Shown: one piece after another, positions 24,369-55,464 of the stretch
Position numbering within the stretch: the first letter of the stretch is position 1
How the letters are laid out: each line of letters opens with the position of its first letter
Origin: Roseofilum acuticapitatum BLCC-M154
GTDB taxonomy: Bacteria > Cyanobacteriota > Cyanobacteriia > Cyanobacteriales > Desertifilaceae
DNA length: 64,000 nucleotides
Reading direction: 5' to 3'
Assembly (NCBI RefSeq): GCF_030068475.1
Contig: NZ_JAQOSP010000041.1
Location: 62,001-126,000, forward strand
Notes under the pieces: generated by a model
The model's database searches: none
Told to the model about the DNA's origin: nothing
Seen by the model: only the letters and a program-made list of their open reading frames with translations
Position numbers and translations under genes: made by a program

Positions 24369-24821
24369 TCAGTCATCTGTAGCATCATCTTGCTGATTCT
24401 GTTGATTGAGTAGAATATCGAGGATGCGGCGATTCTCCGTTTGCAGTCCACGAGTCTCTTCTTGGAGTCTCCGAATCTCTTCTTGTCGTTGATCCATTCT
24501 CTGAAATAACTGTCGCCGCTCTTCCCCGGCTTCTGCTGCGGCATTGGCTAGAGCTTGAATCACACGAGCATTACTTTCGATCAGGCGATCGTAGTTCTTA
24601 GCTTTTTCAAATAACTGTTGCCGCTCTTCCCTCGCTTCTGCTGAGGCCTGGGTTAGAGCTTCTATCATACGACTATTGCTTTCCAGGATGCGCTCATGCC
24701 TCTCGGCTGCACGAGCATTACTTTCCAGGATGCGCTCATGCCTCTCGGCTGCACGAGCATTACTTTCAATGAGATCGGCTAAACGGTCTAACCGTTCATC
24801 ATCCCAACGCCCTGTACTCAT
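24369..24821 (-). CDS. Coiled-coil protein with internal tandem duplication
   Basis: The 150-residue protein is nearly all charged helix. The repeat SNARAAERHERILE occurs twice in a row through a perfect 42-bp DNA duplication (24681-24764). A larger unit of about 33 residues (SNxRxIxALxxAxAEAxEERxQLF) also appears twice. Such repeats in the heptad frame lengthen a coiled coil in 14-residue steps. It has no signal peptide or membrane segment. Proteins of this kind accompany Uma2-type or hypothetical genes in cyanobacteria, but I can give no function. Confidence 0.7.
   Translation of the reverse strand: MSTGRWDDERLDRLADLIESNARAAERHERILESNARAAERHERILESNSRMIEALTQASAEAREERQQLFEKAKNYDRLIESNARVIQALANAAAEAGEERRQLFQRMDQRQEEIRRLQEETRGLQTENRRILDILLNQQNQQDDATDD
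24681..24764. repeat. Perfect 42-bp tandem duplication inside a coding region
   Basis: Two identical 42-base units (24681-24722 and 24723-24764) encode two 14-residue coiled-coil repeats on the minus strand. The unit length keeps the reading frame and is two heptads. Confidence 0.9.
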
Positions 24822-32265: not shown

Positions 32266-32329
32266 GGGAGCAAGATGCTCCCACTCCGGTAATATCAAGG
32301 GATTAGAGGAGTGCGGGCATCTTGCCCGC
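32266..32329. repeat. Double palindrome block, copy A
   Basis: GGGAGCA-AGA-TGCTCCC (32266-32282) and GCGGGCA-TCT-TGCCCGC (32313-32329) are joined by a spacer that contains AATATCAAGGGATT. Copy B with the same spacing is at 32551-32614; only two spacer bases differ. Confidence 0.85.
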
Positions 32330-32550: not shown

Positions 32551-32660
32551 GGGAGCAAGATGCTCCCACTCCAGTAATATCAAGGGATTGGAGGAGTGCG
32601 GGCATCTTGCCCGCTTCTTAACAAATTTTCATGTCCGCTTGCGGAAACCGGACTTGATAT
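32551..32660. repeat. Double palindrome block copy B plus inverted 70-nt repeat
   Basis: The palindromes at 32551-32567 and 32598-32614 repeat those of copy A. The second palindrome is also the end of the inverted 70-nt repeat (32591-32660) that matches 21229-21298 with one mismatch. The two repeat families therefore overlap here and share the palindrome. Confidence 0.85.
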
Positions 32661-34455: not shown

Positions 34456-34718
34456 AATTGCCTGGAAATTCTAGGACTGGGGAATACCATTACTAATAGC
34501 GTGCCTAAGCATCCCACGGGAGAGGGATTGAGGGAGAGGGCATTTCCTGTTGCACAACTCATTTAGACTAGCTATAACTGTGAATATTACTGGAGTAAAT
34601 GCATCTGGCTCCCTAAATTTTAAATTATGGTGTTTTCCCTTCTGAGTCCTCTTCCTAGCGCATCACGCTATACAATATACGATTAGCGCCTGTAGAGTAG
34701 AGGGGAGTGTTAACTACT

Positions 34719-37199
34719 GTGAGTATGATTGAAAATCAACAGCTTGAGGAAGGAATGAGCGATCGCATCCTAACATCGTTTCTGCAAGCAATGCTTCCCT
34801 CATGCGACTCCTTCAATAACACCATCTCTGACAACGATGAGATGTTTCTCATGGCTCTAGAGAACACAGACGGCGATCGCACCCAAGCCGCTATCCGCTA
34901 TCATGGCAATGGACTCCGCATCTTCCAAGCCATCCAACAAATTATCAGCCATCACTTCGGCAGTTGGGATCAGCTCTCCACCTTCCTCGACTTTGCCGGA
35001 GGATATGGACGCTTTACCCGCTTCCTGACTCAAGTTCTCCCTGCCGAACAAATTTGGATCTCCGATATCTATCCAGAAGCCGTACACTTTCAAATCGAAC
35101 AATTCCAAGTTCAGGGTATTCCCTCCACCCTCACCCCCACAGAATATCAAATCGATCAAAGCTTTGACTGTATTCTTGCCAGTTCCTTCTTTAGCCACAT
35201 TCCCGAAAGTACCTTTATCCCTTGGCTCAAAACCCTCTACCAGCATCTGAATGACGGGGGATTACTGATTTTTAGCACCCATGACATTACTCTAGCGGCT
35301 AACCCCTTCACCCTCTCAGCTTCTGGAATTCACTTTATCCCCCAAAGTGAAAGTCGTACCCTAGATCCCTCGGTGTATGGTACAACCTATGTTAGTGAAG
35401 AATTTATTCAACATGCCCTCAATCAAATTTTAGGGCCCAGTGCCACCTATCACCGTATCCCCAAAGGACTCGCCGACCATCAGGATCTGTATATTATTAG
35501 TAAAAATAGTAGCCCAGACTGGTCAAGCTTTACGTTTATCTATCCTCCCCAAGGCTCTCTGGAGAGTACAGAACTGACTTCTTCTGGAGATTGGGAATTT
35601 AAAGGGAAAGTCTGGAGTCTGAACCCAGGAAACGCCGCGAAATCGATTGAATTGTGGGTGAATAATCGGATCATTCATCGCGGTGTTCCCCGTAGTGAAG
35701 GCTCTTGGGTGTGTCATCTCAACCATACTCAAGTCGAGCGCTCTGATGTGGTGATGATTAAAGCGATAGGTACGAATGGAGAGTTACAACGGATGCTGGT
35801 TTGCCAAACTTTGGAAAAATTGGCGAGTTTAGAGTCGGGACACTCATCGGGTAAAGGGTTGGCTGAAGGGATCTTTATTCTGGGGGGAATGCACCGCTCT
35901 GGCACTTCTCTTACTGCGTCGTTGCTGAATAATTTGGGGGTTCATTTGGGCGATCGCCTCGTAGCCACTAAAATAGGTAACGATCGCGGTCATTTTGAAG
36001 ATCTAGACTTCGTAGAATTCCACCAAAATGTTCTCCGCTCCCAAGGCCTAGAAATCGACGGACTCAGCCTAGAATCAGAAATTATGGTCGCCTCACGCTA
36101 CCATCAAAGCGCCAAACTGCTGCTGAAAGAGAAAACCGAGCGCTCGCTCTGGGGATGGAAAGATCCCCGGACTACCCTATTTCTCAAGTTTTGGTCTGAG
36201 TTACTCCCCTCAGCCTATTTCCTCTTAGTCTATCGCTCTCCCTGGGAAGTGGTAGACTCCCTCTATCGTCGCGGTTCTGATGAAGTCGTGGCTGCTTATC
36301 CAGAAAAAGCGGTAGAACTCTGGATGCATTACAACCGGCAGATGCTCGAATTTGCCCAAACCTATCCAGATCGCTGTTTAGTTGCTAATCTTGATGCTAT
36401 TGTTGATCATCCCCAGGCTTGGATACAAGCTATTGAGGAAAAATGGCAGCTCTCTTTGGGTGAACCGGATTCATCCTTGATTGAAACTGAACTGCTCAGA
36501 CGGGATGTTTCCCAAACGGATAAACCCGCCTTAATTCAGGCATTTTTCCCAGAAGCGATAACCCTTTATCAGGAGCTGGAAACCCTAGCGGGTTCTTTGG
36601 CAAGTGTAGACTCAACTGTACCTGCTCATCTCGATCTAGAGGTAGAGTTGGAGAAAATTGCATCTTTAAGTCCCCAAGATTGGGCGTTTCGCAGTTGGCA
36701 GGAAGTGGGAAGTGCGGCAAAATATCAGAAACTGCTGAAACTGAAACAGAAGGAACTGGATCGACAAGCTCAAGAGTTGCGAAGGATGCGATCGCAGTAT
36801 GAAGAATCAGAATACCAAAAATCTCTGATTCAGAAGAAGATGCAGGAAAATAAAGCGCTCTTACAACAGGCTGAAGACTATAAACATATGGCCAATCAAC
36901 TGCGATCGCAACTTGAACAAGCCAATTATCACCTGGAACAAACCCAAAAAGAACTGAATCAATCCCACGCGGAAGCGGTACAAATTAATCAGCAATTGAT
37001 TAATACTAACGCTGAACTCCAACATACCCATAACCTTTCAGCCGACATTCAAGCTCAACTCAATGCTCAACTCCAGGACTTAAATAGTCAACTCCATCAC
37101 CGTAACCTGGAATTGGCAGCGATTAAAGCCAATAAAACTTGGCGTTTGCGGATGAAATGGGTACAACTGAAGAAAAATCTCGGTTTGATTAAGGAGTAA
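34719..37199 (+). CDS. Methyltransferase-sulfotransferase fusion with coiled-coil tail
   Basis: The product has about 826 residues. Residues about 50-230 resemble a SAM methyltransferase (FLDFAGGYGRFTRFL as motif I). A beta-rich linker (about 270-370) follows. Residues about 385-620 are a sulfotransferase domain with the PAPS 5'-phosphosulfate loop GMHRSGTSLTASLL and the 3'-phosphate motif LLVYRSPWEVVDSLYRR. Residues about 660-800 form a coiled coil, and the protein ends with the KANKTWRLRMKW motif common at the ends of glycan-modifying proteins. The GTG at 34719 has AGGGGAG upstream; GTG 34707 and ATG 34725 are alternatives. It probably modifies a surface glycan or glycolipid. Confidence 0.85.
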   Translation: MSMIENQQLEEGMSDRILTSFLQAMLPSCDSFNNTISDNDEMFLMALENTDGDRTQAAIRYHGNGLRIFQAIQQIISHHFGSWDQLSTFLDFAGGYGRFTRFLTQVLPAEQIWISDIYPEAVHFQIEQFQVQGIPSTLTPTEYQIDQSFDCILASSFFSHIPESTFIPWLKTLYQHLNDGGLLIFSTHDITLAANPFTLSASGIHFIPQSESRTLDPSVYGTTYVSEEFIQHALNQILGPSATYHRIPKGLADHQDLYIISKNSSPDWSSFTFIYPPQGSLESTELTSSGDWEFKGKVWSLNPGNAAKSIELWVNNRIIHRGVPRSEGSWVCHLNHTQVERSDVVMIKAIGTNGELQRMLVCQTLEKLASLESGHSSGKGLAEGIFILGGMHRSGTSLTASLLNNLGVHLGDRLVATKIGNDRGHFEDLDFVEFHQNVLRSQGLEIDGLSLESEIMVASRYHQSAKLLLKEKTERSLWGWKDPRTTLFLKFWSELLPSAYFLLVYRSPWEVVDSLYRRGSDEVVAAYPEKAVELWMHYNRQMLEFAQTYPDRCLVANLDAIVDHPQAWIQAIEEKWQLSLGEPDSSLIETELLRRDVSQTDKPALIQAFFPEAITLYQELETLAGSLASVDSTVPAHLDLEVELEKIASLSPQDWAFRSWQEVGSAAKYQKLLKLKQKELDRQAQELRRMRSQYEESEYQKSLIQKKMQENKALLQQAEDYKHMANQLRSQLEQANYHLEQTQKELNQSHAEAVQINQQLINTNAELQHTHNLSADIQAQLNAQLQDLNSQLHHRNLELAAIKANKTWRLRMKWVQLKKNLGLIKE

Positions 37200-37639
37200 G
37201 GAAAGGCAAAGCTAGTAGTGCGAGCGTCTCGCTCGCTGTCTATCTCTAGCAAGCAAGATGTTCTTTGCCTATCTAGTAGTGCGAGCGTCTCGCTCGCTGT
37301 CTATCTCTAGCAAGCAAGATGTTCTTTGCCTATCTAGTAATGCGAGCGTCTCGCTCGCTGTCTATCTCTAGCGAGCAAGATGCTCTCTTTGCCTATCTCT
37401 AGCGAGCAAGATGCTCTCTTTGCCTATCTCTAGCGAGCAAGATGCTCTTTGCCTATTTAGTAATGCGAGCGTCTCGCTCGCTGTCTATCTCTAGCGAGCA
37501 AGATGCTCTCTTTGCCTATCTCTAGCGAGCAAGATGCTCTCTTTGCCTATCTCTAGCGAGCAAGATGCTCTCTTTGCCTATCTCTAGCGAGCAAGATGCT
37601 CGCACTCCTTTAAATTGATACTCAAGAGATTACCCGGAC
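37200..37639. other. Intergenic region occupied by a tandem repeat array
   Basis: The 440-bp gap between the sulfotransferase gene and the TPR gene is almost wholly a variable tandem repeat (37212-37608). Only about 30 bases at the end, with no clear Shine-Dalgarno sequence, remain for the leader of the TPR gene. Confidence 0.85.
37212..37608. repeat. Tandem array of 61-nt and 31-nt palindromic units
   Basis: Three long units begin at 37212, 37273 and 37334 (61-base period). Two 31-base units and one 29-base unit start at 37366, 37397 and 37428. A fourth long unit begins at 37457, and 31-base units start at 37489, 37520, 37551 and 37582. The long unit carries the palindrome GCGAGCG-TCT-CGCTCGC and then CTCTAGC(A/G)AGCAAGATG; the short unit is the second half alone. 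The last unit ends ATGCTCGCACTCC, the boundary of the dispersed palindromes. There are no unique spacers, so it is not CRISPR. Confidence 0.95.
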
Positions 37640-38761
37640 ATGATTATGACTCTAACTCCCAACCCCCGACTCCTGACTTCTCAGCGTATAGTGCTATATC
37701 TAGCTCCTTGGATTATTGGCTGGGGAGGGTTATGGATGTTGCCCGTTGCCGCCGATTCTGTAAACTCTGAAGAGCTGGATACATTCCATCAGCAGGCACT
37801 AGAGTTACTGAATCAGGGCGATAAACTCGCAGCTTTTCAACTTTGGCAACGGGAATTAGAGTTACGCCAAGGGTTGGGAAAAATTGAGGAAATTCAAGCC
37901 TTGTCGAGAGTGGGAGAAATTGCTTGGTCAGAAGGGGAGTCGGCGATGATTCGAGCCATTATCGCTCGCTTAGACGAAATTCAAGGGGAAGTTGAGGAGG
38001 GAGATAGTGAAACTTTACGGGAATTGGGAATAGCTTATCAGCAGTTGCGATCGCCCCAATCTGCCCTAGTAGTCTATCAAAAACTGTTGGATCTGGCCAT
38101 TGAGGAGTCTGATGAGGAGGAACAAGCAGCGCTACTGATGCAAATTGCCCAAACTCAGCTCAACTGGTTTGACTATCCCCAAGCCATTTCAGGCTATGAA
38201 GCGGTGTTGAAGTTTGCCCAACAGCAGGAGGATGCTCTGACTCAAATTCAGGCTTATCAACAGTTGGCTTATAGTTACGAGCAGATGGAGGACTGGGAAG
38301 GGGCGATCGAAACTCGATTGAATCTGATTAACCTGTATAATCAGTCAGGGCAAGTTAGTGAAATTTCCAAGGAGCAAATGGCGATCGCCAAACACTACCA
38401 AACCCTAGGAAACCTCAAAACCAGTGCCCAACTCTATGAGCAAGCCTACCTGAGTGCCTTTCAACAACAACAGCTCGCCCATGCTGCTCAAGCCTTACAA
38501 TCCCTTGCTCAACTCTATCAACAACAAAAGCAATTTCCCCAAGCCCTAGCCGTTTATCGGTCTCTTCTCGGCACTCAAGCCCAAGCCTATGATGCCTATG
38601 GTATGATGAATACCTATGAACAAATTGCCCAGATCCATAAAGATTTGAACCAACCCAATCAAGCCTTATCAGCCCTAGAACAAGGACTAAAATTAGCCCA
38701 GCATCTCAACTTAAAAACCGATTATTTCTCCCATCTGATTCAAACTCTTCAAAACCCATAA
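37640..38761 (+). CDS. Tetratricopeptide repeat protein, probably exported
   Basis: The 373-residue protein has a hydrophobic N-terminal segment (about 18-37, IVLYLAPWIIGWGGLWML), then an all-helical region with about seven to eight TPR units (for example ALELLNQGDKLAAFQLWQRE and AISGYEAVLKFAQQQEDALT). The N-terminus suggests secretion or membrane anchoring, with the TPR domain outside. TPR domains bind partner proteins; no partner can be named. Its promoter and leader must lie in or next to the tandem repeat array. Confidence 0.82.
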   Translation: MIMTLTPNPRLLTSQRIVLYLAPWIIGWGGLWMLPVAADSVNSEELDTFHQQALELLNQGDKLAAFQLWQRELELRQGLGKIEEIQALSRVGEIAWSEGESAMIRAIIARLDEIQGEVEEGDSETLRELGIAYQQLRSPQSALVVYQKLLDLAIEESDEEEQAALLMQIAQTQLNWFDYPQAISGYEAVLKFAQQQEDALTQIQAYQQLAYSYEQMEDWEGAIETRLNLINLYNQSGQVSEISKEQMAIAKHYQTLGNLKTSAQLYEQAYLSAFQQQQLAHAAQALQSLAQLYQQQKQFPQALAVYRSLLGTQAQAYDAYGMMNTYEQIAQIHKDLNQPNQALSALEQGLKLAQHLNLKTDYFSHLIQTLQNP

Positions 38762-54308: not shown

Positions 54309-54402
54309 ATATCAAGTCCGGTGAATGGGAAAAGAGAAGCGGGCAAGATGCCCGCACTCCTCGAATCCCCTCATCTTACTGGAGTGGGAGCGTCTCGCTC
54401 CC
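54309..54402. repeat. Dispersed repeat with two 17-nt palindromes
   Basis: It starts ATATCAAGTCCGGTGAATGGG, like the copy at 24280, and contains GCGGGCA-AGA-TGCCCGC (54339-54355) and GGGAGCG-TCT-CGCTCCC (54386-54402). The palindromes are followed and preceded by ACTCC and GGAGT respectively. It fills most of the psbN-gshB spacer. Confidence 0.85.
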
Positions 54403-55394: not shown

Positions 55395-55464
55395 GGGGGA
55401 ATGGGGGAATGGGGGAATGGGGAATGGGGAATAGGGAATAGGGAATGGGGAATGGGGAATGGGG
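55395..55464. repeat. G-tract minisatellite filling the plsY-gshB spacer
   Basis: Tandem GGGGGAAT, GGGGAAT and GGGAATA units (about nine) occupy the whole 70 bp between the plsY stop and the gshB start codon. The plus strand could form a G-quadruplex, and the plsY-gshB mRNA would carry a C-rich run at the gshB ribosome binding region. Confidence 0.85.

Follow-up and report, generated by a model that had tools for sequence, protein, structure and literature searches.

The tandem array at 37212..37609 of the window is a known kind of mobile repeat, a REP/REPIN, seen turning into a minisatellite. The window is the whole 64,000-nt stretch analysed, C41:62001-126000 of the Roseofilum acuticapitatum BLCC-M154 genome (G000), which is a 5.22-Mb draft of 154 contigs. 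The favoured account is that a REPIN inserted behind an 830-aa gene and was amplified in place to a BIME-like array, that its REPs belong to a GTAG-class family with a 7-bp stem, a TCT loop and the tag GGAG or GTAG, and that a RAYT transposase is the likely partner of this family; taken jointly, these propositions are given a probability of about 0.87. The array begins 12 nt past the stop codon (at 37199) of the upstream neighbour, an 830-aa protein with methyltransferase and sulfotransferase domains (34707..37199, plus strand). It is followed by the gene of a 373-aa TPR protein (37640..38761, plus strand), whose start may be 37646 because relatives align from residue 3.

Repeat analysis divides the array into 13 half-units, four of type A and nine of type B, in the order A B A B A B B B A B B B B. 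The two types are one palindrome in opposite orientations, and each long unit consists of two half-units that are inverted copies of it. The A half-units, 32 nt each on the plus strand, carry the forward palindrome GCGAGCGTCTCGCTCGC after a tag; the first (37212..37243) forms the left array end with its GTAG outward, and the others (37273-37304, 37334-37365 and 37457-37488) are tagged GTAG, GTAA and GTAA. The B half-units, on the minus strand and mostly reading GCATCTTGCTCGC, are 29 or 31 nt long, with the last running into the flank. Two early ones, single 29-nt copies at 37244-37272 and 37305-37333, are eroded; the three inner ones at 37366..37456 (31, 31 and 29 nt) have lost the tag and have an eroded outer stem, and a second, similar run (31, 31 and 31 nt) lies at 37489-37581. 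Tag and stem are intact in all four A half-units and, among the B half-units, only in the last (37582..37609), a reverse REP with a full stem whose outward GGAG tag closes the array on the right. Both end tags, GTAG and GGAG, are unpaired.

Inverse A/B pairing and outward tags are the structural features of a REPIN/BIME, which consists of REP elements: inverse REPs with tags outward stand at the array ends, as in a REPIN, and a REP and an inverted REP recur in consecutive tandem copies, as in a BIME. The initial annotation had recognized the long and short units and placed the array correctly, but it missed the inverse pairing and the outward tags, and did not set the last unit apart from the other B half-units; since its description lacked the inverse pairing, the identification was changed to REPIN/BIME. 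A CRISPR identity was rejected, as the stretches between the palindromes are repeated and are not unique spacers. Matches to Rfam were limited to two under the gathering scores, Plastid-psbA-2 (E 0.4) and mir-208 (E 0.72), and both identities were dismissed as chance.

The annotated tandem array of 61- and 31-nt units is real. Tandem Repeats Finder reports 37212-37583 with periods of 61 and 123 and 37240-37601 with a period of 31, and the long units start at 37212, 37273, 37334 and 37457, giving spacings of 61, 61 and 123. The array includes identical copies, namely the first two A-B pairs (61-nt units) and five 31-nt B units, and a 123-nt block recurs within it at 95 percent; duplication therefore took place at three scales (31, 61 and 123 nt). 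The point variants quoted earlier between neighbouring units are present in the sequence, and their reading as a record of ordered duplication fits at all three scales. Two further tandem repeats occur in the window, a heptamer GGGGAAT in 9.6 copies (55396-55464) and a 42-nt unit, a multiple of three in length, in 2.2 copies at 98 percent (24675-24767).

The units of the array belong to a dispersed palindrome family, as had been proposed. The palindrome core, allowing ≤3 mismatches, matches 18 times in the window against a mean of 0.10 in dinucleotide shuffles of it; 12 of these matches lie inside the array, where one site counts twice, once per strand. Across G000, GAGTGCGAGCATCTTGCTCGCT with ≤3 mismatches is found in 714 places and the reversed-pattern control in none. 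Stems were checked in eight contigs or contig parts (1.17 Mb of G000) by a search for tag and loop that left the stems free; 132 of the 275 matches have six of six stem pairs and 11 have five of six, 143 in all, while the reversed-sequence control gives 93 matches, none with more than four. The loop-closing pair in these 143 REPs is A-T in 105, G-C in 38 and never mixed, and the hairpin thus has a stem of 7 bp and a TCT loop. Between REP subfamilies, stem pairs 2 and 4 covary on both sides. The tag reads GGAG in 123, GTAG in 15 and otherwise in five, in a search that required G-N-A-[AG]; in several other genera the same position mostly reads TAG among the matches listed. The preponderance of GGAG over GTAG in G000 counts against the favoured account. 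Palindrome matches number 714, 185, 0, 368, 4 and 1 in the Roseofilum genomes G000 to G005, all drafts with one genome per species, and in the order as a whole (≤2 mismatches) 47 of 195 genomes have at least one match, five of them Roseofilum.

These are high-copy, short and mainly intergenic palindromes, as REPs are. Among 78 clusters, which comprise all subfamilies in the 1.17-Mb sample, only six have their midpoint inside an ORF of at least 100 aa against 67 expected at a coding share of 0.86. Of the 66 placeable clusters, 29 lie in convergent gaps, which make up 122 of all 667 gaps (Fisher 8e-6), and five lie in divergent gaps, which make up 164 of 667 (Fisher 0.001); these shares are approximate because the ORFs were called mechanically. 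Two other subfamilies, with GGGAGC and GCGGGC stems, form pairs in the window at 32266-32329 and 32551-32614, with tags inward and cores 47 nt apart, and have one REP on either side at 54339-54402. A 780-kb sample contains 21 instances of this tags-inward spacing of 47 nt. GCGGGC-type REPs also stand in arrays, with at least nine at a 38-nt period at L043:6168-6526 (contig C17). In five of the contigs examined, a REP of the paired subfamilies lies about 50 nt or less from the contig start (L028:29, L031:20, L034:40, L035:42 and L043:47), and such repeats therefore probably break the assembly.

Similar arrays elsewhere in the genome, which the initial annotation had suggested looking for, do exist: the 1.17-Mb sample contains 11 clusters of at least three REPs of the array subfamily. 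In eight of them the first REP is forward and the last reverse, in two both terminal REPs are reverse, and one has the opposite arrangement to the eight (0.0012 against an expectation of one in four, for 11 clusters that are not fully independent). Their spacings vary, with 24, 28, 31, 36 and 54 nt among others. Few C41 blocks match G001:C92 and G003:C71, so five array sites were compared across species, the array at 37212-37609 among them; two of the five have an altered neighbourhood in some or all relatives. At C59:2666 there are seven REPs in G000 and six in G003 (four matched the pattern; two others, which carry a point change, were recognized by eye), with like borders, and none in G001, G002, G004 or G005. 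The nine REPs at C41:134222 have no such array as counterpart in the other five genomes, and the next gene, judged by eye, is like that of G000 in G004 and G005 but unlike it in the remaining genomes. The C89 array is missing in G001, where both flanks are present about 140 nt apart. The C131 array has a 29-nt unit, and no REP stands there in G001 or G003; the following sequence differs in these two genomes, so this is no clean empty site.

The gap behind the 830-aa gene is one of these sites. A search with the TPR protein gives Roseofilum halophilum BLCC-M91 as the nearest named relative, at 80 percent. The 830-aa gene and the TPR gene are adjacent in G000, G001, G004 and G005; in G003 the same pair spans two contigs that overlap by 141 nt, and in G002 the two genes are on separate contigs. 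The site in G001 holds a single REPIN of two REPs, with outward tags GTAA and GGAG and cores 29 nt apart. Its right flank nearly matches that of the G000 array; the left flanks differ, and one border of the site is accordingly not clean. In G003 the site has eight REPs, one forward and then, 29 nt on, seven reverse at a 21-nt period. No REP of the array family was found between the same gene pair in G004 and G005. Another palindrome, starting with GTAG and overlapping the stop codon of the upstream gene, is present in these two (L055 and L056 loci; GTAGGGGCGAACGG...CGCCCCTAC).

Folding of the G001 REPIN gives a hairpin of 19 bp (-25.4 kcal/mol, z -10.5), the long hairpin of a REPIN. An inner A-B pair of the G000 array folds without it (-11.1, z -2.7), and the 31-nt B unit, folded as DNA, is near its shuffles (z -0.55). 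The array thus consists of weakened palindromes, perhaps because long perfect palindromes are unstable; a like argument is made in section 14 of PMC3733652. Relatives have both filled and empty sites, as a mobile REPIN would leave, and we infer the direction of change. Judged from sequence, the gap would have gained a REPIN in the G000/G001/G003 lineage, and arrays with different units would have followed in two of the three. Because the orthologous gap has a single REPIN, an array of 21-nt units or none, a dispersed palindrome did turn into a minisatellite, in two lineages and with a different unit in each, and the earlier suggestion of such a transition is borne out by the REPIN in G001 and the differently built array in G003.

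A candidate for the enzyme that mobilizes the family lies on contig C36. The Y1 transposase family has eight matching places in G000, and NCBIfam classes one of them, L025:6985-7434, as a REP-associated tyrosine transposase (102 bits, cut-off 80); it has the motifs DHVH, WQ and YIRENP. Its sole sequence match in the PDB is E. coli TnpA-REP (4er8, E 0.0023). REPs flank this gene on both sides, ten behind and three in front, an arrangement of RAYT and REPs known as a REPtron, and REPs of the array subfamily stand beside none of 11 other Y1-transposase places in G000, G001 and G003. A second RAYT-like gene on C36 (L025:13146-13694, 182 aa, NCBIfam 82.9 bits, cut-off 80) has no adjoining REP of the array subfamily, and a Y1 place on C17 has a GCGGGC-type REP directly behind it.

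In other genera, 8 of 25 close RAYT loci have strict REPs (same tag, loop and stem rule) and 17 do not; among 28 control loci, picked by the analyst from TPR matches and distant RAYT matches, one has a strict REP, which is the G001 REPIN of the array site itself. Across the 195 genomes of the order, a REP match is found in 13 of 26 with a close RAYT compared with 34 of 169 without (Fisher 0.002), where close means E 1e-20 or better, a cut set after seeing the matches, and the genome lists were entered by hand. Within Roseofilum a close RAYT is present in G000 only; G001 and G003 give matches of 27 to 30 percent, and none were found in G002, G004 or G005. The expectation that RAYT presence tracks REP abundance was set aside, as several REP-rich genomes (G001 with 185 REPs, G003 with 368, G130, G106 and G182) have no close RAYT. 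By sequence comparison, the C36-type RAYT is a likely partner of the REP family, and the assignment is not exclusive because 17 of 25 close loci are free of strict REPs and, within the genus, the close RAYT is confined to G000.

The sequence of events proposed for the array starts with a REPIN, two inverse REP palindromes with tags out, which would have inserted behind the 830-aa gene. A RAYT would spread REPs by single-strand cleavage; cutting and joining in vitro have been shown for E. coli TnpA-REP (excerpt of PMC8266576). Later growth probably proceeded in units of REP plus spacer, the repeated arms having undergone slippage in replication or unequal exchange, and the hairpins would help growth, with or without nicking by RAYT. 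The growth unit consists in G003 of a single REP bracketed by two CT pairs and in G000 of one REP plus the REPIN spacer, and both are compatible with slippage at hairpins. Simple cutting by RAYT does not fit, because the CT pairs that bound the G003 unit are on the untagged strand, and RAYT nicking may nevertheless have contributed. A broader proposal is that REPINs repeatedly seed fast-growing intergenic minisatellites in Roseofilum, each with its own unit length from 21 to 54 nt, that growth occurs via the REP itself (RAYT nicking or hairpin-driven copying) and not by chance slippage, and that one orthologous REPIN grew independently in each of two species, giving 31/61-nt units in the first and 21-nt units in the second. 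This wider claim is tentative, and the odds are against it as a whole.

Two other explanations of the array have to be weighed against a REPIN amplified in place. An ordinary minisatellite, produced by slippage with no mobile element involved, would account for the nested duplications of 31, 61 and 123 nt and for the identical copies, but its unit would hardly be one of hundreds of dispersed, tagged palindromes, nor would a relative, G001, have a single REPIN at the very site; slippage as the sole cause is barely credible. The number or order of units could instead be an artefact of assembly. The genome is a draft in 154 contigs and the longest exact internal repeat of the array is 114 nt, so that the number of half-units may indeed be wrong. 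An artefact is nonetheless improbable, given that collapse would not yield the point changes and length differences among half-units and that separately assembled relatives likewise have REPs at the site. Insertion and local amplification of a REPIN is the reading retained, and unit counts from short reads at such array sites need long reads.

With regard to function, a neutral mobile repeat is the most likely interpretation, and at most the array would amount to a series of transcribed hairpins downstream of the 830-aa gene. The initial annotation had envisaged that unit number tunes transcription of the TPR gene, as in bacterial contingency loci. The array does occupy the gap ahead of that gene, its unit number and length differ between species, and its transcribed strand is more stably folded than shuffled sequences (z -4.2), which is what an array of palindromes would show. 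Against this stand the absence of any promoter-like or terminator-like match inside the array, the presence of this gene pair in G004 and G005 with no such REPs between the genes, and the avoidance of divergent gaps by the family; the one promoter-like match of the scan, at 37615-37644, is outside the array and no more than chance would give (0.8 expected), and the scan gave no terminator-like site. Promoter tuning by the array is unlikely, and a contingency-type regulatory minisatellite very much so. Somewhat less remote, yet still not expected, is a role at the RNA level, in which the hairpins would protect or shape the upstream transcript at its 3' end, a role that REPs have in E. coli. The position 12 nt behind a stop codon, the preference for convergent gaps and the stable RNA fold speak for such a role. 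The inner B half-units are, however, weak hairpins (from one unit folded as DNA), convergent gaps may just be the least harmful places for insertion, and the available part of PMC13289151 describes REP-like stabilizing 3'-end structures as common in E. coli and largely absent in the cyanobacterium studied. An effect on mRNA ends, or a mild effect on the transcript, is possible for what is most likely a neutral repeat.

One gene pair in close relatives thus presents no REPIN, a single REPIN and two different arrays, and the question of how REP pairs become BIME arrays is thereby open to direct test. A cyanobacterial REP family is, in addition, now linked to a likely RAYT.

Filamentous cyanobacteria contain other intergenic tandem repeats, the STRR and LTRR, which are direct repeats of 7 nt and 37 nt. 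The Roseofilum unit, by contrast, pairs two tagged palindromes in inverse orientation. There are published accounts of REPs, REPINs and BIMEs, of tandem arrays of REPs and of REP families in cyanobacteria (available parts of PMC3733652, PMC3116915, PMC8266576 and PMC6006769). The palindrome sequence itself was not found printed in the literature searched by oligonucleotide. Among the titles and abstract openings listed for Roseofilum and repeats, none concerned these elements, and nothing on this REP family appeared among the matches listed for LTRR/STRR or for REPIN and cyanobacteria. Independent growth of one orthologous REPIN into arrays of different units was not found described in the REPIN literature as far as it was available, and no claim of absence is made.

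A close cyanobacterial precedent is the GTAG REP super-family (GTAG-15 and GTAG-16; Di Nocera 2013, excerpts of PMC3733652), which likewise consists of tagged palindromes in filamentous and unicellular cyanobacteria, occurring as dimers with tags out or in and as clusters. GTAG-15 has large loops (9-15) compared with the 3-nt loop in Roseofilum, a comparison by description and not by consensus. The C36 RAYT resembles TnpA-REP subclass 2.7 (Quentin 2018, excerpts of PMC6006769), whose cyanobacterial members have the motifs [ND]HVH, WQ and YI[LR][NQ]NP and REPs tagged GT[AG]G; the motifs, compared by eye, are alike except for an E in the Y motif where the subclass has N or Q. The E. coli BIMEs and TnpA-REP (excerpt of PMC8266576) share with the Roseofilum array the consecutive tandem copies of a REP and an inverted REP, the tag at the 5' foot of the hairpin and a transposase of the same family; the Roseofilum tag is mostly GGAG and the stem is perfect, whereas the E. 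coli stem is bulged. The REPIN clusters of Pseudomonas fluorescens SBW25 (Bertels and Rainey 2011, excerpts of PMC3116915) are likewise built on an inverted REP pair, in a genome with RAYT genes, and include tandem arrays of up to 12 REPs. Their REP sequence and spacing are different, and their tandem units include flanking segments, whereas the commonest unit in the Roseofilum array is one REP with a short spacer.
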